From an uncultured Bacteroidota bacterium (GTDB lineage: Bacteria > Bacteroidota > Bacteroidia > AKYH767-A > JABDAW01), in the NCBI GenBank assembly GCA_903844645.1, contig CAIMUP010000065.1, positions 1 through 41,612 on the forward strand: a stretch of 41,612 nucleotides of DNA. The letters run 5' to 3'. Under the pieces are notes generated by a model, which saw only the letters and a list, made by a program, of their open reading frames with translations, was not told where the DNA came from and did no database searches. This document shows positions 3,681 to 41,612 of this stretch, one piece after another. Both the position numbers and the translations under genes were made by a program. Each line of letters starts with the position of its first letter. The stretch's first letter is position 1.

Positions 3681-6600
3681 TTATACTTTTGTATAATACT
3701 TCAAAGGGATATTTATCGAGACCTTCGTTCCGCTGCCCATTTTCGATGCAATATCGAAGGCTCCGTCAATCTCCTCCATCCTCCTTTTCATGTTTAATAA
3801 ACCATTGCCCCCTTTCCGGCTAATCTCCCCTCGCTTTTGGAGAGGGGTCGGGGGTGAGGCATCGAAACCCTTCCCATTATCCTCAATAATAATCGTCAAT
3901 TCGTCGTTGATGAGTATCATGTTCACTATCGCTTGCGTGGCATCGGAATATTTCAACACATTATGCAAAGCCTCCTTGACGACAAGATAAATATTTCTCC
4001 TTGTTTCGCCATACACCGGTATTTCGGGGATGGATGCAGGGGTATTCCATAGTAGTTTAATAGTGGAATCCTCATACATCTCGAACACATTAATCTTGAT
4101 GAAGGAAAGAAGATTCGGCAGTGAGTCATTCTGCGAATTCATTGCCCAGATAATGCCATTCATCTTATCCACCATGTCCGATGACTCGGTCGTAATCTTA
4201 TCCAATGTTCCCTGTTGCTTCTCCCCCGATGTCTTCCCTGCAAGTTGGCTCATCATCGAGATCTTAGTAAGCCCCGAACCCAGATCATCATGCAATTCCG
4301 ATGCAATCCGAGAGCGTTCGTTCATAATGTTTTGCAGCTTCTCCAATTCAATCCTTTGTTTCATCAGTTTCCTGTTGGCATATATTTTAAAAGAGAGATA
4401 AATCAACCCGATGCAAACAACAACAACAAGTATCCTGAACCAAATTGTTTGCCACCAGGGCGGAGTAATAATAATTTTAATGCTCGTACCGATCTCATTC
4501 CAGAGCCCATCGTTGTTGCATGCTTTGACTCTGAAAACATAATCCCCAGGCGGCACACCCGTATAGCTTGCCCTGTCATTAATACCCGTCTTTATCCAAT
4601 CTTTATCCACACCTTCGAGCATATAAGCAAATTCATTCTTCGCAGAATGATAGAAACTCAAAGCCGCAAACTCAAACCCAAAAAAGTTCTGCTGATAATT
4701 CATCTTGATCCCCCTTGTCTGCGCAATATCTTTCGTTAATAGCTTCGTCGAATCATTGATACCAACACGATTATTGAATAAATAAAAGTCCGTAAGCACA
4801 ACCGGAGGCACAAACTTATTTTGCAGCAAAGAATCAGGCTGAAAATACATCAAACCCTCCGTCCCCCCAACATAGATTTTCCCACTTTTGCCACTACAAT
4901 ATGCACTCCCGACAAAGTTAGACACAGGCAGTTTATCTTGAGATGTATAAAAACTACAATGCAACGTAGTAGCCCTCATCGGGTACACAGGCGGTGCAAA
5001 TCGAATCAAACCATTGCTTCCCACCATCCACAAATCGCCATTCGCAACTTCCATAATACCATACAAAGTATTATCGGAAAGACCGTTCTTCTCGGTGAAT
5101 ATTTTGAATGATTTAGTAGTAGGGTCATAGTAGTTCAATCCTCCGCCGGCAGTAGTAATCCATGTCTGCCCCTTCCTCGTATGCACAATCCCAAATACAT
5201 CATTACTACTGATAGTTGTAGCATCTTTCGCATCATGCACAAATACTTTCATCGCCTTCGTCTTCGGATTAAATATCTGCACACCCGCACTGCTTGTAAT
5301 CCATATATTCCCTTCATCATCCTCCGCCATCGCCGATGCATGCAGATAAGAATTAAGTTTATCATGTGTATTGTCATACTTCAACAGATAATACCCAAAC
5401 TTCTTCTCCTTCACATCATAACTAATCAAACAATTCGCACCAAAATATAGCATCCCGCTCTTGCTTTCCAAAATACAATTAATCCTCCTCCTTGTTTGAT
5501 TGAAGATACTGTCATTAGCATCCAGATAAGTGGTGAACCGATCTTTTAAAGCATCGTAAATGCTCAATCCATCACTGCGTGTCCCAAAGAAATATAGCTT
5601 CCATCTCTCCGAATAATAACTTGCGAAAATAGCATTGCCACAAATAGAATTTGGATTATGTTCCTGATGTTTATAATTAATGATATTATGATCAGTATTG
5701 CGCAATTCATACAAACCATTCTGCAAACCCCCAATCCACACATTCTGAAAAGGATCCTCATACACACTCAAGACCATTTCATCATTGATATCGCCCTTGC
5801 TTTTCTTATCACAAGGAATAAAATTAAAGAGATTCTGCTTCGGCATACAATAATTCAAGCCCCCTGTCATCGTACCAATCCAGATACCACCAGTCTTATC
5901 CTGAAGCATACTATATACATCATTCCCACTCAATGATTCTTTACGTTTTTCATCATGAAGAAGATGAATAGTACTGTTGTCTTTTGTATAAATATAGATT
6001 CCATTGTTGGTAGTACCAAACCAGATGTTTCCATCCCTATCTTTCATCAAACAGTTTATTTCATCATCCGAACTTCCACCTTCTTTCCTCACAACAAGTG
6101 CGAATGTTTCTGTATTACTATCAAACCGTTCCAGCCCTGCATTGGTAGCTATCCAATACATGCCACCCCCTGCCTTTGTGATACTATAAACGATGTTTCC
6201 TGCAATGGAATGCTTGTTATCAGAAGTATGAAGATAGTGTTTAAACATCCCTGTCTTCAAATAATATCTGTTCAATCCTCCCTTAAACGTCCCTATGAAA
6301 ACAGACTCATCCCTATCATCCGATTCGACACAATATGTTTCATCCGAAGACAGCGAATTGGAAACATTTGCATCATGTTTCAAGGTTATAAAATGGAATG
6401 GTTCATCCGCCCTGCTAATACATATTCCACGAGAAGTAGCAATATAATAAGAGTTACCGATAAGCTTTATTTCTTTAATATCATTGGCTGCCAAAGTACC
6501 ATGAACATCTTTCTTATATTGATAAGAATGGGCAGTATTGGTGGTCAAATCAAGAATAGATAAGCCACCGAAAACAGTACCTACGAACAACTTATTCCGA

Positions 6601-6920: not shown

Positions 6921-7148
6921 GGCAAAAATAACTTTTGAATGGAACTAAGGAATCCCCTTGCACAGAAATTTTTATGGAAAGGGATGAATTGGATAAAAGA
7001 AGCCCAATAAATACTGATACGATCACCGAAAAGGCAATTGCCACACCTCGAATTTCGCTTGCTACTACTTGTATTAGACCTCATTCATAATTCAGTTTCT
7101 ATAGACTTTTATGCTGCTTTTTATTGAGTCATTATGAAAGATGTCAGA

Positions 7149-7370
7149 TATTTCATTCCATGATCCCAATTCGACATCACATAATCCTTATTCAACATCA
7201 CATGAGCCTTATTCAACATCACATGAGCCTTATTCGACATCACATGAACCTTATTCAACATCACATGAACCTTATTCAACATCATATTTACCTTATTCAA
7301 CATCATATTTACCCAATTCAACATCACATCAACCCAAGTCAATAACATATTAACCCAAGTCAACATCACT
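7149..7370. repeat. 21-bp tandem array A1
   Basis: Nine units of exactly 21 bp start at 7170 and repeat without any indel to 7358, with a diverged unit before and a partial unit after. Each unit carries an ACATCAC or related core followed by a variable half (ATGAGCC, ATGAACC, ATTTACC, ATCAACC). The array lies in the divergent spacer between the kinase and the barrel-protein gene. Because 21 is a multiple of 3, several frames stay open across it, but none looks like a real protein. Confidence 0.95.
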
Positions 7371-7376
7371 GCGAGG

Positions 7377-7544
7377 CTTGGGAACATCACCGAAAGGCTT
7401 GGGAACATCACCGAAAGGCTTCGGAACACCACCGAAAGGCTTCGGAACATCACCGAAAGGCTTCGGAGCATCACCGAAAGGCTTCGGAACACCACCGAAA
7501 GGCTTCGGAGCATCACCGAAAGGCTTCGGAACACACATACTGGC
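7377..7544. repeat. 21-bp tandem array A2 (GC-rich)
   Basis: Eight units of exactly 21 bp run from 7377 to 7544. The junction of consecutive units forms CCGAAAGGCTTCGG, a dyad with CCGAA and TTCGG arms around AGGC. The ACATCAC core is shared with array A1 and stays in the same 21-bp register (7174 + 21n in A1, 7384 + 21n in A2), although the rest of the unit is unrelated. Units vary by single substitutions only (AACATC, AACACC, AGCATC). Confidence 0.95.
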
Positions 7545-9308: not shown

Positions 9309-11207
9309 ATGAATAAAAAAGAACGGTTAAAGATAATTGAAAAGTCCTCTCGTCAAGTCGGACCAGGCGTGTTTTATTCCACAATAGTGGTTATCGCGTC
9401 GTTCCTTCCTGTCTTTCTTTTGACCGGAATGGAAGGGAAATTATTCCATCCCCTTGCTTGGACAAAAACATTTATCTTAATCATTGATGCCTTCCTCGCG
9501 ATAACACTCACACCTGTTTTAATCTCCTATTTAATGAAAGGAAAACTGAAACCAGAGAGTGCAAATCCCATTACTCGGACTTTAGAAAAGATATACACTC
9601 CGATAATAACATGGTGCTTGGTTTGGCGCAAAACAGTCCTTGGAATTAATCTTATAGCATTGATTGTAGGCGCACTCATGATGTTCCAGATGGGTACCGA
9701 ATTCATGCCTCCTTTGGATGAAGGTTCGATATTATTCATGCCCGTAACATTACCCGATGTCTCCAATTCCGAAGTAAAAAGAATCCTGCAAGTACAAGAT
9801 AAAATCATCAAATCAATTCCCGAAGTAAAGAATGTTTTAGGCAAAGCAGGGCGAGCAAATACCGCGACTGATAATTCTCCAATCTCCATGATTGAAACGA
9901 TCATCCTATTAAAACCAAAAACAGAATGGCGAGCAGGATTAACCAAAGAAGATATCATTAATGAATTGAATGCAAAGCTCCAGATCCCCGGTGTAGTCAA
10001 TGGTTTCACGCAACCCATCATCAATAGAATCAACATGCTTTCGACAGGAATAAGAACCGATGTCGGCTTGAAAGTATATGGACAAAACCTCGATACCATC
10101 TATGCGCTCGCCACAAGAATGAAGAATGAATTAGCAGGAATTGATGGCATAAAAGATCTCTATGTAGAACCAATTACCGGAGGTCGTTATGTAGATATCA
10201 CCATCAAGAAAGATGAAATCGGAAAGTATGGTTTAAGCGTTGATGATGTCAATATGTATATCGAAACCGCATTAGGTGGAATGAACCTCACGACCACGAT
10301 TGAAGGCAGAGAACGCTTCCCCGTCAATGCTCGGTTTGCCCAGGATTCACGCAATAGTCTCGATGCGATTCGGCAGATGCCAATCAAAACAATGAACTAC
10401 GGAAGCATCCCGCTTTCATCCGTTGCAGACGTTTCCATTTCCGAAGGACCACCGATGATTAATTCTGAAAATGCGATGCTACGCGGCACAGTTTTATTCA
10501 ACGTCCGCGACCGCGATTTAGGAAGCACGGTGAAAGAAGCACAAACAAAATTAAACAAATTATTCTCCAAATTACCACGTGGCTACAACCTCGAATGGAG
10601 CGGCCAGTGGGAGAATCAGCTCCGTGCCAACAAAACATTAATGATGATAGTACCCATCGTTCTCCTCATAATTTTCATGGTACTCTATTTCACATACAAG
10701 TCCTTAAAAGAAGCATTACTCACCATGATAACCGTCCCATTCGCCCTGATAGGCGGCATTTACATGGTCTATTTTTATGGAGTAAATCTTTCCGTTGCAG
10801 TTGCAGTTGGCTTCATCGCATTGTTCGGCGTAGCGGTCGAAACAGCCATGCTCATGATGATTTATCTCAACGAATTCATGGAGAAATTAATTACCGACAA
10901 AGGCAATTCATCCACCACCATCACCAAAGAAGATTTGCGCAAATACATCACCGATGGCGCCACCCAACGCCTCCGTCCAAAACTCATGACTGTCTCCGTC
11001 TCGCTCTTCGGTTTAATCCCCATTTTGTGGGCGACAGGTACGGGCAGCGACATCATGCTCCCCATCACAATCCCATTAATTGGTGGAGTTATTTCTTCTA
11101 CAATTTATGTTTTGCTCATCACCCCTGTGGTTTATGAAATCGTAAAAGAAAGAGAACTGAAGAAACATGGAAAACTAATTATGCCAGGTAAAAATGAAGA
11201 AGTATAG
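9309..11207 (+). CDS. cusA: CusA/CzcA-type RND metal efflux pump, C-terminal part only
   Basis: The 632 residues correspond to the C-terminal 60% of a CusA-type pump. They start with the cytoplasmic segment after TM4 (KKERLKIIEKSSRQVGP), followed by TM5 and TM6 (FLPVFLLTGMEGKLFHP), TM7, the second periplasmic domain (NRINMLSTGIRTDVG) and TM8-12 (PFALIGGIYMVYFYGV, GATQRLRPKLMTVSVS). The N-terminal 420 residues are absent here but are encoded at 15384-16652. The two pieces are complementary and share only KKE, so joining them gives about 1049 residues, the normal length. Start ATG 9309 has AT-rich sequence before it and no clear promoter of its own. The pump should export Cu(I)/Ag(I) from the periplasm with TolC and CusB; whether the two parts assemble is unknown. 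Confidence 0.9.
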   Translation: MNKKERLKIIEKSSRQVGPGVFYSTIVVIASFLPVFLLTGMEGKLFHPLAWTKTFILIIDAFLAITLTPVLISYLMKGKLKPESANPITRTLEKIYTPIITWCLVWRKTVLGINLIALIVGALMMFQMGTEFMPPLDEGSILFMPVTLPDVSNSEVKRILQVQDKIIKSIPEVKNVLGKAGRANTATDNSPISMIETIILLKPKTEWRAGLTKEDIINELNAKLQIPGVVNGFTQPIINRINMLSTGIRTDVGLKVYGQNLDTIYALATRMKNELAGIDGIKDLYVEPITGGRYVDITIKKDEIGKYGLSVDDVNMYIETALGGMNLTTTIEGRERFPVNARFAQDSRNSLDAIRQMPIKTMNYGSIPLSSVADVSISEGPPMINSENAMLRGTVLFNVRDRDLGSTVKEAQTKLNKLFSKLPRGYNLEWSGQWENQLRANKTLMMIVPIVLLIIFMVLYFTYKSLKEALLTMITVPFALIGGIYMVYFYGVNLSVAVAVGFIALFGVAVETAMLMMIYLNEFMEKLITDKGNSSTTITKEDLRKYITDGATQRLRPKLMTVSVSLFGLIPILWATGTGSDIMLPITIPLIGGVISSTIYVLLITPVVYEIVKERELKKHGKLIMPGKNEEV

Positions 11208-11424
11208 CATCATATTACTATTTCTTTCTCTTTTTGAAGATCGAAAGAGTCATTTATTAAGTTCCCTAAATCTTTTAGGGAGTTCCCTAAATCTTTTCGG
11301 GGGTCCCCTAAATCTTTTAGGGAGTTCCCTAAATCTTTTCGGGAGTTCCCCAAATCTTTTAGGGAGTCCCCTAAATCTTTTAGGGAGTTCCCTAAAATGC
11401 TTAAAATTCAGTTTATTAGATTAA
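11194..11424 (+). other. Open frame: signal-peptide-like start fused to the 21-bp array
   Basis: An ATG at 11194 overlaps the end of the CusA C-half by 14 bp, as neighbouring genes in this locus also do. It begins with a typical export signal start (MKKYSIILLFLSLF). After about 20 residues the frame runs into the 21-bp array and becomes heptads of the LGSSLNL type, ending at a stop at 11422-11424. It may be the 5' remnant of a gene (for example an original tolC) cut by the array, or a small expressed repeat protein. The overlap and the signal-like start argue against pure chance, but coding is not proven. Confidence 0.35.
11260..11406. repeat. 21-bp tandem array B with hairpin units
   Basis: Seven units of exactly 21 bp run from 11260 to 11406, and the last is partly diverged. 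Each contains CCCTAAATCTTTTAGGG, a 7-bp dyad around TCT; some units have TCGGG or CCCC variants in one arm. It fills the spacer between the CusA C-half and tolC, inside what should be one operon, so a hairpin array would lie in the mRNA. Confidence 0.95.
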
Positions 11425-11427
11425 ATT

Positions 11428-12660
11428 ATGAATAAATTGAATAGTTACCTAATCCTATTACTTATTCTTATTGGAGAATACGCTATTTCCTTAGGGCAAG
11501 TCCTTCCATTGGATTCCATTTTGAATCGAATCGAAAGAAACAATCCGATGCTCAAGATGTATGACGAACAAATTAACGCCGCAACTAACTTTTCAGAGAT
11601 CACAAAAAGCTGGATGCCTCCAAAGATTTCGACGGGTCCCTGGCAAGTGCCTTACAAAAATTTTAGTGATGGTATGTGGATGATTTCTGCCGAACAAATG
11701 ATTCCAAATCCAAAGAAACAAAAAGCGAATTATAATTATATGCTTGGGTTGACGCACATGGAATGGCATGAGAAGGCGGCGAAACGGAATGAATTATTTG
11801 CAGCGGCGAAGAAAAATTATTACGAATGGGTGGTATTGGAAATGAAGAGGGGTTTGATTCTTCAGACAGATTCCTTGTTGAATTATATCATTCAGGTGGG
11901 GCAAATTCGATATACTTACAACAAAGAAAAACTCAATACTATTTATAAAGCCCAAGCCGAATTGTATGAATTACGAAATATGGAAACGATGTTGCAGGGC
12001 GATGTGAAGATGAAACATGTGGAACTCAATACGCTGATGGATGTTGATAAAACTCTTGAATTTTCTGTTGATACGAATTTTATTTCTCGCAATTATGATT
12101 TGCAATTGCCTGATACGGCAGCCATTGCTGCATCACGGAGCGATATCAAACACTTCGATGCAAGTATTAATTCGATTAAACTTCAGCAAGAATATGAGCG
12201 ATCAAAACGGTTCCCTGACTATGGGATTTCAGTAAGTCACATGCAAGCACTTGGGGCGATGCCAAATTCGTTTGCTGCGATGGGAATGGTTACAATTCCG
12301 ATTGTACCCTGGGCTTCCAAAGAATATAAATCGAACATTAAAGGACTGGAAAATTCTGCCAATGCAATCAGTTATCAAAAGCAGTCACTCATCAACGAAA
12401 CCGCCGGTATGCTTGCCTCTCTGCAATATCAAATAAAAACTACGAAGCAACAATTGACAAATTATAAAGAGAATATTCTCCCGGCATATTATAAAAGTTA
12501 TCAGACTTCATTGATAGCTTATGAACAAAATACTGAAGATTTATTTATGGTATTAGATGGTTTGAAAATGTATCGAATGGCGAAGATAAATGAGTTGGAG
12601 CAATTGAACACACTCCTTAAATTACAAGTGGAATATGAAAAGGAATTGGAGATACGGTAG
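11428..12660 (+). CDS. TolC-family outer-membrane efflux protein
   Basis: The 410-residue protein has a signal peptide (residues 1-24, LILIGEYAISLGQ) and the TolC-type layout of two long helical hairpins. The helical regions include the segments at about residues 30-60, 100-210 and 290-405, rich in Glu, Lys and Gln with regular hydrophobic spacing. It would form the outer-membrane channel of the tripartite metal efflux system. The following adaptor gene overlaps its 3' end by 26 bp, which points to translational coupling. It is a little shorter than many CusC homologues and shows no lipobox. A second TolC-type gene lies at 39986. Confidence 0.85.
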   Translation: MNKLNSYLILLLILIGEYAISLGQVLPLDSILNRIERNNPMLKMYDEQINAATNFSEITKSWMPPKISTGPWQVPYKNFSDGMWMISAEQMIPNPKKQKANYNYMLGLTHMEWHEKAAKRNELFAAAKKNYYEWVVLEMKRGLILQTDSLLNYIIQVGQIRYTYNKEKLNTIYKAQAELYELRNMETMLQGDVKMKHVELNTLMDVDKTLEFSVDTNFISRNYDLQLPDTAAIAASRSDIKHFDASINSIKLQQEYERSKRFPDYGISVSHMQALGAMPNSFAAMGMVTIPIVPWASKEYKSNIKGLENSANAISYQKQSLINETAGMLASLQYQIKTTKQQLTNYKENILPAYYKSYQTSLIAYEQNTEDLFMVLDGLKMYRMAKINELEQLNTLLKLQVEYEKELEIR

Positions 12661-13864
12661 ACAATTGATTAGCAGGATTCGGCTTCTCTCTATTTGCATT
12701 TTGTTGTTGGTAAATCTTTCCTGTAACAGGGATGAACACAAGCATATTACGACATCAAAGACCATTGATTTGAGTGGCTTGGAACAACCGACCAATCAAG
12801 TTGTGTTCAGTGATTTGAAAACAATTTCGCTTGTTCAAAAAACGATTACTCTAGTCATTACTGCAACAGGTTTAATAACTTATGATCCACGATTAATGAA
12901 TACAATCAGTGCAAGATTCAGTGGACGAATTGAGAAGCTTTACGTTAGATTTAATTTTGAAAATGTTGTCAAGGGGCAACGAATAATGGATATCTATAGC
13001 TCCGAAATTGTTACTGCACAAGAGGACTTTATCTTTCTTTTGAATAACTCCTCAAGTGATATTTCATTGGTTAATTCATCAAAACAAAAACTGCATTTCC
13101 TTGGCTTATCAGATGAACAAATCAAACAAATTGAAACAAGCAAGAAGCCGATAAACCCGCTACCAATCTATAGTTCATATACCGGACATATTCACGATAT
13201 CGGTAGTGGTAGTAATGGAGTTAATTCAAGTATGAATAGTGGTGGAAGTTCAGACATGAATACTACATCAAAATCAAATACTCAAGAGCAAATTAAAGAT
13301 ATACCTTCATCTCAAAATTCTGCTTTAACAATCAAGGAAGGGATGTATGTTCAAAGTGGACAAGCAATCTTTGCAGTCTATAATACGAGCCGGGTTTGGG
13401 CGGTTTTGAATATTTATCCAAAGGATGCAGCAATGATAAAACTTGGTGATAAAGTTACCTTGAATGTTGAAACAAATTCCACAAATTCCATACAAGCAAG
13501 CATCAATGTTATTGAACCAGTTTCTGGTCAAAATACTTCTTCGATTAAAGCAAGAGTTTATATACAGAGCATAGAAGCTCACCATTTGAAAATAGGGACT
13601 CTTGTTACAGCAAAGATTGCATCAAAAGAAATTACCGGACAGTGGCTACCAAAATCATCGGTAGTGTCATTAGGGCAAAATAAAGTTGTGTTTCTTAAAA
13701 CCAATAACCATTTTATAAGTAAGGCAATCCATGCTGGAATGACCACTGATTCATTAGTGCAAATCATTGATGGTTTGCAATTCAATGATCAAGTTTCGTT
13801 GAATGCACAATTCCTTGTGGATAGCGAAAGTTTTATTCAAACTGATACCAATGAACAGAAATAA
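12635..13864 (+). CDS. cusB: CusB-type periplasmic adaptor (first of two), lipoprotein
   Basis: The 409-residue protein has an N-terminal lipoprotein signal (LLSICILLLVNLSC, Cys at about 30) and a membrane-fusion-protein architecture. The barrel-sandwich half motif is near residues 90-120 (ISARFSGRIEKLYV, QRIMDIYSSEIVTAQED), followed by a helical hairpin, a second lipoyl half (EGMYVQSGQAIFAVYN) and beta-barrel domains. A Ser/Asn/Gly-rich insertion of about 45 residues (190-235) interrupts the lipoyl domain. It lacks the N-terminal heavy-metal-binding domain found in the next adaptor. It overlaps tolC by 26 bp and the second cusB by 14 bp. It should link the inner-membrane pump to TolC. Confidence 0.85.
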   Translation: MKRNWRYGRQLISRIRLLSICILLLVNLSCNRDEHKHITTSKTIDLSGLEQPTNQVVFSDLKTISLVQKTITLVITATGLITYDPRLMNTISARFSGRIEKLYVRFNFENVVKGQRIMDIYSSEIVTAQEDFIFLLNNSSSDISLVNSSKQKLHFLGLSDEQIKQIETSKKPINPLPIYSSYTGHIHDIGSGSNGVNSSMNSGGSSDMNTTSKSNTQEQIKDIPSSQNSALTIKEGMYVQSGQAIFAVYNTSRVWAVLNIYPKDAAMIKLGDKVTLNVETNSTNSIQASINVIEPVSGQNTSSIKARVYIQSIEAHHLKIGTLVTAKIASKEITGQWLPKSSVVSLGQNKVVFLKTNNHFISKAIHAGMTTDSLVQIIDGLQFNDQVSLNAQFLVDSESFIQTDTNEQK

Positions 13865-15383: not shown

Positions 15384-16652
15384 ATGGTCGAGCGACTCAT
15401 CTCATTCTCGTTACGCAATCGCCTGCTGGTGCTGCTCCTTGCTGCATGTATGTTTGGTTGGGGCATTTACGAAGTCAGGCATAATTCCATTGATGCCATC
15501 CCCGATTTATCCGAGAACCAGGTGATTGTTTTTACGGAGTGGATGGGTCGCAGTCCGCAGGTGATTGAAGACCAGGTTACTTACCCGCTCGTTGCGAATC
15601 TTCAGGGCATTCCGAAGTTGAAAAACATTCGCGGTTCGTCTATGTTCGGAATGAGTTTTGTTTATCTTGTCTTCGAAGATAATGCGGACATCTATTGGGC
15701 AAGGACGCGGGTTTCGGAGCGATTGAACTTTGCACAGAAGCTGCTGCCCGAAGGCATTTCTCCGACCATCGGTCCTGATGGAACCGGTGTCGGACACATC
15801 TTTTGGTACACTTTGGATGCTAAAGGATATGACCTTGGCGAGCAGCGTGCTTTGCAGGATTGGTATATTAAATTTGCCTTGCAAACATTGCCCGGAGTGA
15901 GCGAAGTCGCATCTTTCGGTGGCTTCCAAAAGCAATATCAGATCATCATTGATCCCATTAAACTGACCTTCTATAATCTCTCGATGATGGATGTTTTGAA
16001 GTCCGTTGAATCCAACAACAATGATGTCGGTGGAAGGAAATTCGAGATGAGTGATAAGTCCTACATCGTCCGTGGATTGGGCTATATCAAGTCAATCAGC
16101 GAGATCGAAAACATCTCAATCAGCACATCAAACAATACACCGATAAGGATAAAAGACATCGGCTCTGTGCAGATGGGCGGCGACATTCGTTACGGTATCT
16201 TTGATGAAAACGGAGAAGGCGAAAAGGTCGGTGGCATCATCGTTATGCGATATAATGAAAACGCCGATGCAGTAATAAAGAGCATCAAAACAAAGGTGGC
16301 TGAAGTACAGAAAGGATTGCCCGAAGGCGTGAAATTCCAATTGGCATACGACCGCAGCGAACTCATCGAAGAAGCCATCAGTTCGGTCAAAAGAACGCTC
16401 CTCGAAGTCTTCATCAGCGTTTCGATCATCGTCCTGATTTTCCTTTTTCATTGGCGCAGCGCGCTTATCATTCTCATCCAAATCCCTATTTCGGTCGCCT
16501 CCAGTTTCATCTTTCTAAATGCCTTGGGATTCTCGTCCAACATTATGTCATTAACGGGCATCGCACTGGCTATTGGAGTGATCGTAGATGACGGCATCGT
16601 GATAGTTGAGAATGCTTACCGGCATTTAAGCGAAGCGCAAAAGAAAGAATAG
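15384..16652 (+). CDS. cusA: CusA/CzcA-type RND metal efflux pump, N-terminal part only
   Basis: These 422 residues match the first 40% of a CusA-type pump. TM1 is at about 12-32, the first periplasmic pore domain runs to about 335 (DAIPDLSENQVIV, SSMFGMSFVYLVFEDN, DGTGVGHIFWY), and TM2-TM4 follow. TM4 carries the proton-relay acids (D402, D403 and E409 in VDDGIVIVENAY). The protein stops in the cytoplasmic loop before TM5 (SEAQKKE, then TAG). The missing part is the gene at 9309-11207, which begins with KKERLKII, so the break point is shared. Coding quality looks intact, with no frameshift. It is the last gene of the locus and starts 5 bp after the interrupted metal-binding gene. It is either an independently expressed half-transporter or one product of a rearrangement. 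Confidence 0.9.
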   Translation: MVERLISFSLRNRLLVLLLAACMFGWGIYEVRHNSIDAIPDLSENQVIVFTEWMGRSPQVIEDQVTYPLVANLQGIPKLKNIRGSSMFGMSFVYLVFEDNADIYWARTRVSERLNFAQKLLPEGISPTIGPDGTGVGHIFWYTLDAKGYDLGEQRALQDWYIKFALQTLPGVSEVASFGGFQKQYQIIIDPIKLTFYNLSMMDVLKSVESNNNDVGGRKFEMSDKSYIVRGLGYIKSISEIENISISTSNNTPIRIKDIGSVQMGGDIRYGIFDENGEGEKVGGIIVMRYNENADAVIKSIKTKVAEVQKGLPEGVKFQLAYDRSELIEEAISSVKRTLLEVFISVSIIVLIFLFHWRSALIILIQIPISVASSFIFLNALGFSSNIMSLTGIALAIGVIVDDGIVIVENAYRHLSEAQKKE

Positions 16653-16737: not shown

Positions 16738-16904
16738 TGCATCAATCCTATTTCTTCATTTTTTATTCCTGTTTTTTTTATTTTATTCAGCAAAAAAACC
16801 TCATTTTGCCCTATTTTGATGCTCTCAAATATAGCTAAAGTGCTGATTTGTATAAGCAAAACATGCATAGGAGGGTTTTCGATGAAAATAGTCTTGTTCA
16901 CGCA

Positions 16905-17030
16905 GAGAATCATCGCAGTGTCATCGAGAATCATCGCTGTGTCGCCGAGAATCATCGCAGTGGCACTGAAAATCGTTGCAGCGACACCGAAAATCATTGC
17001 AGTCGCGTCTTTATTGCTTGCAGTCACATC
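16905..17030. repeat. 21-bp tandem array C
   Basis: Six units of exactly 21 bp start at 16905 and share the core GAGAATCATCGCAGTG or close variants; the last, at 17010-17030, is decayed but still in register (TTGCAGTCACATC). It lies between convergent genes. No strong dyad is seen in this unit. Confidence 0.9.
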
Positions 17031-19514: not shown

Positions 19515-19638
19515 AGCAATTTTCAGGACATAATAGTGACATATATTATAAAATAAGACCTCAATCCTATTTTATGGGTCATCAATTCATCGTTCTATAT
19601 TTCAGCCAATTTCTTTTTTCTTGTAAATTACGTTCGTC

Positions 19639-19806
19639 AAAATGTTTCAGACTGTAGTCAAAATGGTCTTGACCGTAGTCAAAATGTTTCTGACTGTAGT
19701 TAAAATGGTTTTGACTGTAGTTAAAATGGTTTTGACTGTAGTCAAAATGTTTCTGACTGTAATCAAAATGGTTTTGACCGTAGGCAAAATGATTTTGACG
19801 AAGGTC
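19639..19806. repeat. 21-bp tandem array D with strong dyad
   Basis: Eight units of exactly 21 bp end 2 bp before the complement of the M1 aminopeptidase stop codon (19809-19811). The unit junction contains AGTCAAAATGGTTTTGACT, an 8-bp dyad around TGG, and also GACTGTAGTC. Variants alternate between ATGGTTTTG and ATGTTTCTG. The array lies in the 3' flank of the aminopeptidase gene and continues, decayed, for about one unit upstream of 19639. The remaining spacer to 19463 shows only the promoter. Confidence 0.95.
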
Positions 19807-19808
19807 AA

Positions 19809-22296: not shown

Positions 22297-22388
22297 GTTA
22301 TTAATAAATCACTGCCGCGGCATTTAAGAGAATATTAACCAAAAACAGAGATTCCGCAGGTTTTCGCGTTTCTGACCAATTTCAAAGT

Positions 22389-22682
22389 GACGATTGCTCC
22401 ATTGTTGGAACAATTGCCCAAATTCAAGGTGACGATTGCTCCATTGTTGGAACAATTGCCCAAATTCAAGGTGACAATTGCTCCATTGTTGGAACAATTG
22501 CCCAAATTCAAGGTGACGATTGCCCTATTGTTGGAACATTTGCCGAATCTTAAGGTGACGATTGCCCTATTGTTGGAACATTTGCCCAATCTCAAGGTGA
22601 CGATTGCTCCATTGTTGGAACTTTTGCCCAATCGTCACCTTAAGTCTGCTCCATTGTTGGAATTTTTGCCCAATCGTCACCT
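22389..22682. repeat. 42-bp tandem array E (two 21-bp halves), with an internal flip
   Basis: Seven units of exactly 42 bp run from 22389 to 22682. The two halves share an ACGATTGCTCC or ACAATTGCCCA core, so the unit is a dimer of about 21 bp. TTGCTCCATTGTTGGAACAA is an 8-bp dyad with one mismatch. In the last two units the segment between CAATC and GATTG appears as its reverse complement (GTCACCTTAA instead of TTAAGGTGAC), without change of register. The array lies immediately downstream of the flippase gene. Confidence 0.95.
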
Positions 22683-22776
22683 TAAGATTGCTCGGAAACT
22701 CCAGTTTCTACCCATCTGAACACGTTAATTTCATCGGGAAGAATGTTTCCCTCCCAAAAAGGGCTTGAAAGGGGTT

Positions 22777-28149: not shown

Positions 28150-28217
28150 GGATTCTTTGGGATAATAGGTTTCTCGGAATTCCAATTCATTGATTTATTC
28201 ACCAAAAAGCATTAGAA

Positions 28218-28458
28218 ATGGTACGCAATTGTGTACCGTTCCAAAGTGCAACATTTGGAATGGTACGCGTTGGTGTACTGCTCCAAATGTTGACATTTGG
28301 TATGGTACGCGTTGGTGTACTACTCCAAATGTTGACATTTGGTATGGTACGCGTTGGTGTACTACTCCAAATGTTGACATTTGGAATGGTACGCGTTGGT
28401 GTACTGCCCCAAATGTTGACATTTGGTATGGTACGCACTTGTGTACTGCTCCAAAGGA
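28218..28458. repeat. 42-bp tandem array F (two alternating dyads of 21 bp)
   Basis: Five full units of 42 bp start at 28218, 28260, 28302, 28344 and 28386, with a partial sixth to 28458. One half carries GTACGCGTTGGTGTAC (GTAC arms) and the other CCAAATGTTGACATTTGG, a 7-bp dyad around TTGA. It lies in the divergent spacer between the Rpe-CBS operon and hppD, between the two promoters. The rest of the spacer holds only the promoter boxes. Confidence 0.95.
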
Positions 28459-28569
28459 CATTATTTATTAAAAGCGATGATTTAACCTTTCTGCACTCCT
28501 TATTATATAGCATGATTCCGATTTTTGATGACAATGACGAGGATCATATTTCTTTAAAGCATATTTTTA

Positions 28570-32716: not shown

Positions 32717-32958
32717 TTTTTCGTCCCCAAAAAGAGGATTCAACTGACATTCCGAACAAGCAAATCTCGTCCCATCCGAACCTTTCTTGCATTCACGAAA
32801 TCTAGTTCATTTTCGGGGTTGTTTTTTTCTTGGGTAGGACGATTTTATTAGTTATTGTCTTATTAAATTTCCCAGGGCGTCCAATTACTTCTTTTGTCCA
32901 AGGATACTGACAGGTGCGAAGCTCGATAAACCTTAGTGGATTCATCTTCCTTTTTATC
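32717..32958. other. Gene-free spacer after priA
   Basis: No frame with coding character, no terminator with a clear T-run and no repeat is visible before the start of array G. Confidence 0.4.
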
Positions 32959-33125
32959 CTGTACAAAGGGACTTTTATTCTACCAGAGGGGGAGTTTATT
33001 CTACGAGAGAGGAGTTTTATCTTGCCAGAGGGGGAGTTTATTCTACCTGAGGGGTAGATTATTCTACCTGAGGGGAGTTTATCTTGCCAGAGGTGGAGAT
33101 TATGCTACCAGAGGTCGAGTTTATC
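32959..33125. repeat. 21-bp tandem array G
   Basis: About eight units, seven of 21 bp and one of 20 bp (33064-33083), share CTACCAGAGGGGGAG and a TTTATT or TTTATC end. One unit forms CTACCTGAGGGGTAG (5-bp arms). It lies between the convergent priA and lptE genes. This is the only array here with a visible indel. Confidence 0.9.
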
Positions 33126-33272
33126 GTACCTTTTCGAGAATGTGGGTTTTTAGTTAAAATTTTTAACCTCCCCAAAAAGGTTTTTAGCGACAGATTCACT
33201 GATTAAAAAAAATTTCACAGAGGGAAAAAGGAGATTCACAGAGGGGGTTGGGATTGCAAATCCTGACCAGCC

Positions 33273-37698: not shown

Positions 37699-37887
37699 CC
37701 CCAAACCGACCTCTGCTTCAAAGTTTATGACCCCTGCTGCAAGGTTTGCCTTATCTACTGCAAAGTTTCTGGAATCTGCTGCAAAGTTAATGACATTTGC
37801 TTAAAAGTTTTTGACATTTGCTTAAAAGTTTTTGGCATTTACATAAAAGTTTTTGGCATTTGCATAAAAGTTTCAGGTTTCTGCTTC
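37699..37887. repeat. 21-bp tandem array H
   Basis: Nine units of exactly 21 bp run from 37699 to 37887. They share AAAGTTT at the start and TGC near the end; units change gradually from CCCCTGCTGC-type to GACATTTGCTTA-type ends. It lies in the divergent spacer between miaB and rpmB. The part at 37888-38031 shows no further feature, and the rpmB promoter follows. Confidence 0.92.
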
Positions 37888-39985: not shown

Positions 39986-41254
39986 ATGAATAAAAGTATA
40001 GTATTGTTAATAACACTCTTGTGTATTGCCGTTGTGGGTAATGCGCAAGGAACGATGGTTCAGCCCGACACGGTTTTTATGACTGTGTCGGAGGCTGAAA
40101 CACGCTTGGTGGCGGAGAATCTGACCCTCCTCGCGGCTCATTATGATATAGACCTCGCTAAGACGAAAGTGCTGGATGCGAAACTGTGGAATAATCCCAA
40201 TATTAACTATGCGCAAGGGCTATACACGCCTACAACGGGGAAGTATTTGGACAATACGAAGACCGGCACATACTCTATTCAGATTCAGCAATTGTTTTCT
40301 ATCGCGGGCAAGCATACGAACACGGTGAAGTTATCCAGAATTAATGAAAAGATGACCGAGATGCAGTTTAACGACATGGTGCGGAGCCTGAAATACCAGC
40401 TTTATACCGATATGAATACCTTAAATACCGACCAAATGATGGCGAAGGTGTTCGATTATCAGATGGAGAAGCTGGCGGTGTTGCTAACTTCGATGAATCA
40501 GGAGAAAACCCTCGGCGTAATTGCCGGAAACGAGGTATTAAGGGTGAGGGCGGAGCTGGAGGAGTTGAAAAACACGGCTGCCATGAACTTCAGCGAGATG
40601 ATGACGACCGAAAAAGACCTTAAAATCTTATTAAACCTGCCCTTTCACTCCTATATTATAGTGAAAGAACTACCGATTCCGACCAAAATAATCCCTTCGC
40701 TGCCAGAATTAATCGCGGTAGCAGCTACTAATAGAGCTGATTTGATGCTTACGAAGGCTACGGTGGAGTATCAGATGCAGAACATCAAATTGCAGAAGTC
40801 CTTAGCCGTGCCCGACCTCACGTTGGGGGTTTCGAGGGATGAATCGGGCAGTTTTGCTCCCAATATCGAGGAAATAAGCATTGGTTTCGACGTCCCGTTG
40901 TTCAATAGGAATCAACATCAGATAAAAATGGCGAAGCATTCAATGGCGCAAGCCATAATTAAGGACAGTTTGCAGCGAAATACCTTGGAAAACGAGGTCG
41001 CGGATGCCGTTATTCACTATCAAAATATGCAAAAACAGTTTAATACGATGGATTCGGACTTCGATACCATGTTGGAGGAGATGAATACCTCCGCGTTAGC
41101 GAATTATTCTAAGCATTTCATCAGCCTCGTGGACTTTTTAGACCAGATTCGTACCTTTTCTGCCTCCAAAACGAGCTTCTTGCAGCTTAAAAAGCAGAAA
41201 ATAGACGCAATCAACTACCTAAACTTCGTCGTCGGCATACCTATTATTAAGTAA
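39986..41254 (+). CDS. TolC-family outer-membrane efflux protein (second copy)
   Basis: The 422-residue protein has a signal peptide (IVLLITLLCIAVVGNAQG) and the repeated helical hairpins of TolC/CusC/CzcC-type channels (VSEAETRLVAENLTLLAAHY, TYSIQIQQLFSIAGKHTN, GSFAPNIEEISIGFDVPLFNRN). It is more similar to CzcC-type proteins than to the TolC at 11428, with which it shares only general layout. No pump or adaptor gene is visible before the window ends, so its partners may lie beyond 41612. No clear promoter is seen in the 132-bp gap before it. Confidence 0.9.
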   Translation: MNKSIVLLITLLCIAVVGNAQGTMVQPDTVFMTVSEAETRLVAENLTLLAAHYDIDLAKTKVLDAKLWNNPNINYAQGLYTPTTGKYLDNTKTGTYSIQIQQLFSIAGKHTNTVKLSRINEKMTEMQFNDMVRSLKYQLYTDMNTLNTDQMMAKVFDYQMEKLAVLLTSMNQEKTLGVIAGNEVLRVRAELEELKNTAAMNFSEMMTTEKDLKILLNLPFHSYIIVKELPIPTKIIPSLPELIAVAATNRADLMLTKATVEYQMQNIKLQKSLAVPDLTLGVSRDESGSFAPNIEEISIGFDVPLFNRNQHQIKMAKHSMAQAIIKDSLQRNTLENEVADAVIHYQNMQKQFNTMDSDFDTMLEEMNTSALANYSKHFISLVDFLDQIRTFSASKTSFLQLKKQKIDAINYLNFVVGIPIIK

Positions 41255-41349: not shown

Positions 41350-41612
41350 TATAGCCTTCTCAATAGAAAAAGTAACCCTAACGATAGAAAAAGTAGTTTT
41401 CGCATACGTGAAAGTAGTTCAAACATATGTTTTAGTAGTACAAACATATGTTATTGTTGTACAAACATATGTTTTAGTAACAATAAGATATCTTTTAGTA
41501 ACAATAAGATATCTTTTAGTAACAATAAGATATCTTTTAGTAACAATAAGATATCTTTTAGTAACAAAAAGATATCTTTTAGCAACAAAAAGATACCTTT
41601 TAGTAACAATAA
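41350..41612. repeat. 21-bp tandem array I with changing palindromic core (continues past the window)
   Basis: Twelve units of exactly 21 bp run from 41350 to 41601, and a partial unit reaches the window end. Most start AGTA. The core changes along the array: irregular, then AACATATGTT (three units), then AAGATATCTT (five units), then AAGATACCTT. The register is never lost. The first 95 bp of the spacer (41255-41349) show no feature. Confidence 0.96.

Follow-up and report, generated by a model that had tools for sequence, protein, structure and literature searches.

The paired substitution in array I, a 21-bp tandem array that closes the window studied here, is real but ordinary. Array I is one of several hundred intergenic 21-bp minisatellites of its genus, and its switch between two palindromic cores probably took two ordinary steps through a mismatched unit and then spread as a block. 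The genus-wide lock on 21 bp is the more unusual fact and deserves attention over the paired change. The window is the 41,612 nucleotides that make up the whole of contig C65, from a Bacteroidota assembly of 3.84 Mb in 143 contigs.

Array I (41390..41612, no strand assigned) is as a tandem array certainly beyond chance. Three units carry the perfect dyad core AACATATGTT (41422..41473, starts at 41422, 41443 and 41464) and five the perfect dyad core AAGATATCTT (41485..41578, starts at 41485, 41506, 41527, 41548 and 41569). The sequence-only reading had described these three and then five units, each a perfect dyad and differing by a paired C/G swap, and the letters are confirmed. All eight perfect cores are spaced exactly 21 bp, so the register is unbroken across the core change, as it had claimed. 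Its description was exact for cores and register but incomplete, leaving out a core at 41590..41599, AAGATACCTT, in which an A.C mismatch breaks the dyad, and the units on contig C88. The window edge falls within the array, and the unit following the AAGATATCTT block is already AAGATACCTT; the array then resumes at G000:C88:1-201. The end of C65 and the start of C88 overlap by 146 bp with one mismatch, and the join is confirmed because the operon order in the sister species G001 matches. C88 opens with array I units, supplying AAGATACCTT twice more and then AAGATATGTT once. Completed in this way, the array has three units of AACATATGTT, five of AAGATATCTT, three of AAGATACCTT and one of AAGATATGTT, and the dyad is broken in 4 of the 12. 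The last unit, AAGATATGTT, is exactly one change away from each of the two perfect forms, and intermediates of this kind can go unseen when a window ends inside an array.

Half-changed cores also persist elsewhere in this genome. The unit family of array I comprises five arrays (C65/C88, C13, C6, C37 and C117) with 57 in-register cores, 15 of them perfect dyads and 42 imperfect. Besides its single copy in C88, AAGATATGTT occurs three times in C13, and C13 also has the other single-step intermediate, AACATATCTT. At the paired positions 3-8 all four combinations are present (C-G in 26 units, G-C in 19, C-C in 8 and G-G in 4) and the association is not significant (Fisher p=0.31, array-by-type cells). 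Next to it, the pair at positions 4-7 has A-T in just 20 of the 57 cores and is broken in most. With such half-changed, broken cores present both beyond the end of the window and in sister arrays, the paired change has the appearance of ordinary stepwise drift.

We compared array I with a rotation null in which its own mutation masks were moved to the 20 other registers, keeping unit relatedness. At least one compensated pair appeared in 10 of the 21 registers, or in 9 of 21 under the other assumed ancestor, and the coincidence in array I is therefore not improbable. Given how this array mutates, the odds of a compensated pair are roughly those of a coin flip, a caution that applies to tandem arrays with block-wise variants. 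The argument that two matching single changes were improbable does not survive this result together with the two extant intermediates, and the rotation null and surviving intermediates rule out the paired change as strong evidence of selection. The wider sample, from one genus, covered 0.68 Mb of this genome, 0.28 Mb of G001 and 0.15 Mb of G002, and contained 169 usable arrays with a 21-bp period and a length of at least 84 bp. Of these, 32 had a consensus dyad score of at least 6, against about 4 expected from shuffles, and 35 of the 169 had a significant dyad (p<=0.05), so that dyads above shuffles are a minority. Across 55 dyadic arrays we counted 14 compensated pairs against 12.4 in the neutral rotation null (P=0.35), which is no excess. 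Unit pairs at Hamming distance 2 had a weak on-axis excess in arrays scoring at least 5 (12 vs 6.7, p=0.046) that was not significant in the set with dyad p<=0.05. A first conditional test, giving a probability of compensation of 0.36 vs 0.25 when both columns vary, was superseded because it ignored unit relatedness.

The dyads are mildly protected, yet paired substitutions are not in excess. Single changes on dyad pairs numbered 229 in the 55 dyadic arrays, about 15% fewer than the 269 expected, and all 400 rotations gave equal or higher values. Among double changes in the same arrays the Watson-Crick share was 0.58 vs 0.37 in the null (P=0.005). Variability in dyadic arrays was 0.083 in dyad columns vs 0.152 elsewhere (p=5e-4). 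Dyad and other columns did not differ in weak-dyad arrays (0.101 vs 0.102) or in a rotated-mask simulation (0.094 vs 0.091). Array I has 4 broken dyad cells against a register mean of 12, the lowest among all 21 registers, a count that could also mean selection. Linker inversion could contribute to the deficit of pair-breaking changes.

The array lies between a tolC-like gene and MFP-RND efflux genes. The former (39986..41254, + strand) encodes an outer-membrane efflux protein of the OEP/TolC family (Pfam PF02321, E 1.2e-25; synteny with G001) and is the first gene of an OEP-MFP-RND efflux operon that continues on C88 with an MFP gene (C88:326-1435, 65% identity to its G001 homologue) and an RND gene (C88:1445-4561, 86.5%). 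G001 has the same order of OEP gene, 21-bp array, MFP gene and RND gene, and the array in its OEP-MFP gap has the 21-bp period with a sequence unrelated to array I. This orthologous array contains two perfect dyads, AACTGG..CCAGTT and AATCCA..TGGATT, that are unlike each other at several pairs, along with half-changed hybrids and one loop inversion of CT to AG, and its perfect cores are fewer than its broken ones. Mostly unpaired core changes in relatives had been named beforehand as the outcome that would speak against a selected or hairpin-copied dyad, and the sister arrays and the orthologous array largely conform to that outcome. Elsewhere in the window, two ORFs correspond to a single G001 RND efflux protein, 9309-11207 to its C-terminal and 15384-16652 to its N-terminal part. 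Their order around OEP and MFP genes is permuted, through either misassembly or an efflux operon that has been rearranged or broken.

Each unit of the 169 arrays was also compared with all others, forward and reflected, and a placement was counted when it was at least 2 letters better than any forward unit. In-register reverse-complement units were found at 21 placements in 10 arrays, while the reverse-only (mirror) and complement-only controls gave 0 placements each in the same scan. All 21 sit on the dyad axis, a location partly expected because low distance is possible only at a near-symmetric axis. In C37 the 11-nt linker ATGGCTACTAA and its exact inverse TTAGTAGCCAT are both present with the flanking AACATATGTT cores unchanged, and an inverted unit at L104:8748 matches at 21 of 21 letters. 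A further array (L037:565-827) combines a 4-nt loop inversion, GGTG/CACC, with an inverted repeat of ~49 bp. Inverted units near array edges may stem from the inverted flanks of an element and not from events within the array. In array I itself there is just a weak, possible partial linker inversion of 6 nt: ATTGTT (41453..41458) in the second linker is, as read from the sequence, the reverse complement of AACAAT in later linkers. Published effects of template switching at quasi-palindromes are arm homogenisation and spacer inversion (PMC8604942; PMC8794818), the latter reported where the arms of the inverted repeat are about 10 bp long (PMC8604942). The exact linker inversion between unchanged palindromic arms of ~10 bp resembles those reports. 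Unlike them, our cases are in tandem arrays, where each neighbouring pair of cores is an inverted repeat, and arm homogenisation is not in detectable excess. Arm rewriting that makes the arms more complementary, counted directly, came to 45 against a null of 50; systematic arm rewriting is therefore rejected, and the count does not demonstrate homogenisation by template switching.

These inversions, and the multi-pair-different dyads, hybrids and loop inversion of the orthologous array, speak for a single hairpin-templated correction, in which a core folds back during replication and one arm is copied from the other, making both changes, or the second, at once. Set against this are compensated pairs and arm rewriting at genome-wide background and the single-step intermediates persisting in the unit family, and we consider such an event an unlikely source of the switch in array I. 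Hairpin-templated events appear to occur in such arrays and may help to keep dyads, which the pair in array I does not show. The proposal that the dyad was either selected or hairpin-copied thus loses its central argument, and weaker versions of it keep some support from the mild protection and the sister-array inversions.

Selection on function appears less probable still. A symmetric DNA-binding protein with putative sites two helical turns apart would suit both the phasing of exactly 21 bp and the lower variation of dyad columns in dyadic arrays, but the units are wholly different between arrays, even at the equal operon position in the sister species, few arrays have a significant dyad and most family cores are imperfect, making this quite improbable. 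It seems just as doubtful that the array acts as RNA, with hairpins between the tolC-like and MFP-RND genes modulating efflux-mRNA stability or polarity, while selection preserves the potential to pair and not the sequence. The + strand of array I does fold much more stably than shuffled versions (z -7.6), neighbouring cores being joined in stems; pair-breaking changes are in deficit, and the sister species keeps an array of other sequence at the same place. Good folding is expected of any tandem palindrome, though, and arrays, which lie mostly outside ORFs, occupy gaps whatever the gene orientation (codirectional 35/82, convergent 22/39, divergent 15/34). The shared position can be chance because about 45% of gaps of at least 150 bp hold an array.

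We return to the two-step origin. Array I would have grown by unit duplication and turnover around an A+T-rich quasi-palindrome. The change from AACATATGTT to AAGATATCTT most likely passed through mismatched AAGATATGTT or AACATATCTT in two ordinary steps, and unit turnover would then have spread the changed core block-wise. In strongly dyadic arrays the dyads appear weakly protected against breaking changes, plausibly as neighbouring palindromic cores pair into a 10-bp stem with an 11-nt loop. Such core-core pairing may let the polymerase switch template, invert linkers and keep the arms complementary, and the dyad may have no dedicated function.

The setting is a real find, with hundreds of minisatellites of mostly unrelated sequence, one exact period and occasional in-register inversion of units. 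In this genome the lag spectrum of tandem repeats gave 210 raw tracts at 21 bp and 0-5 at each other lag from 14 to 30. Merged, these form 139 arrays in 675 kb, or 3.6% of sampled bases. Density within the genus is 14-21 arrays per 100 kb (14 in G001, 17 in G002), falling to 3.4 in G003, from another genus of the same family, and to 0.7 in other families of the order. A related unit turned up at another place in the sample for just 34 of the 169 arrays. The window itself contains eight further 21-/42-bp array regions, all intergenic and with different units (7148-7533, 11250-11403, 16887-17030, 19622-19808, 22363-22714, 28200-28470, 32952-33130 and 37708-37884). Tentatively, and as something we consider possible though still doubtful, about half of this genus's longer intergenic gaps may owe the making and upkeep of their 21-bp arrays to a sequence-independent process set to two helical turns of DNA. 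Such a process would copy units in either orientation around palindromic cores, passing on dyad and spacing as structure and leaving sequence free to change. The arrays form a natural setting in which to study the origin of tandem repeats, the reason for a 21-bp period and the extent to which template switching shapes palindromes.

Other sources for the arrays were considered. A coding 7-residue repeat is rejected as variation is not concentrated in one codon position (bias 0.526 vs 0.536 permuted), although open frames in arrays are slightly more numerous than expected (4.36 vs 3.88). For a phage or plasmid source of array I, we found no plasmid match and two single 20-mer matches to viral contigs that lack such an array. 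Ordinary bacterial VNTRs or minisatellites share unit duplication and loss, block-wise variants and contigs breaking within arrays; here, one fixed period of 21 holds across unrelated sequences genus-wide. Contigs C1, C6, C8, C13 and C88 start, and C65 ends, within 21-bp arrays; short-read assembly therefore breaks there and copy numbers are unreliable.

In the open-access literature on Bacteroidota we found nothing on 21-bp arrays beyond the 23-nt BrickBuilt element of Porphyromonas gingivalis, a minisatellite/MITE with one 23-nt unit at 19 loci and 0.44% of the genome (PMC4596501). Both systems are from Bacteroidota and have many intergenic loci of imperfect direct repeats predicted to form long stem-loops. 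The unit family of array I likewise forms dispersed intergenic copies of a common unit, at five loci. BrickBuilt also has a leader and tail with inverted ends, and comparable flanks surround the sister arrays C6, C13, C37, C117 and C1. The left flank of C13 is present in C6, whose two flanks are inverted copies; it has no match at the array I locus (C65/C88), where we found no leader and tail with inverted-repeat ends. BrickBuilt differs in its 23-nt unit, whereas the period here is always 21 bp with lags of 14-30 otherwise almost empty, and most array units here are unrelated and arrays make up about 3.6% of the sampled genome. About 10 of 145 arrays had inverted flanks, in some cases clearly MITE-like, and such flanks are rejected as a general feature.

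Several individual loci are of interest. The arrays at L035 (G000:C6) 5900-6350 and L093 (G000:C1) 1-190 have a common inverted flank, GGGCAAACAAGG...GGTTTTTCAATGG, around differing units, and one element type therefore hosts different minisatellites. At L047 (G001:C285) 12644-12898, the palindromic 21-bp array TGAGCCAAATGTACATTTGGA lies within inverted flanks of ~90 bp, the whole being a MITE-like element, and part of the flank also adjoins L055:145-296. The array at L039 (G000:C37) 5941-6230 fills a 480-bp gap whose G002 counterpart is 145 bp and empty, representing gain or loss of a whole array. The clearest non-21 family in the sample is a separate 53-bp repeat array, AAACCCCGAAGGGGTGGCAT..., at locus coordinates 14021-14644 of L042 (G000:C88).
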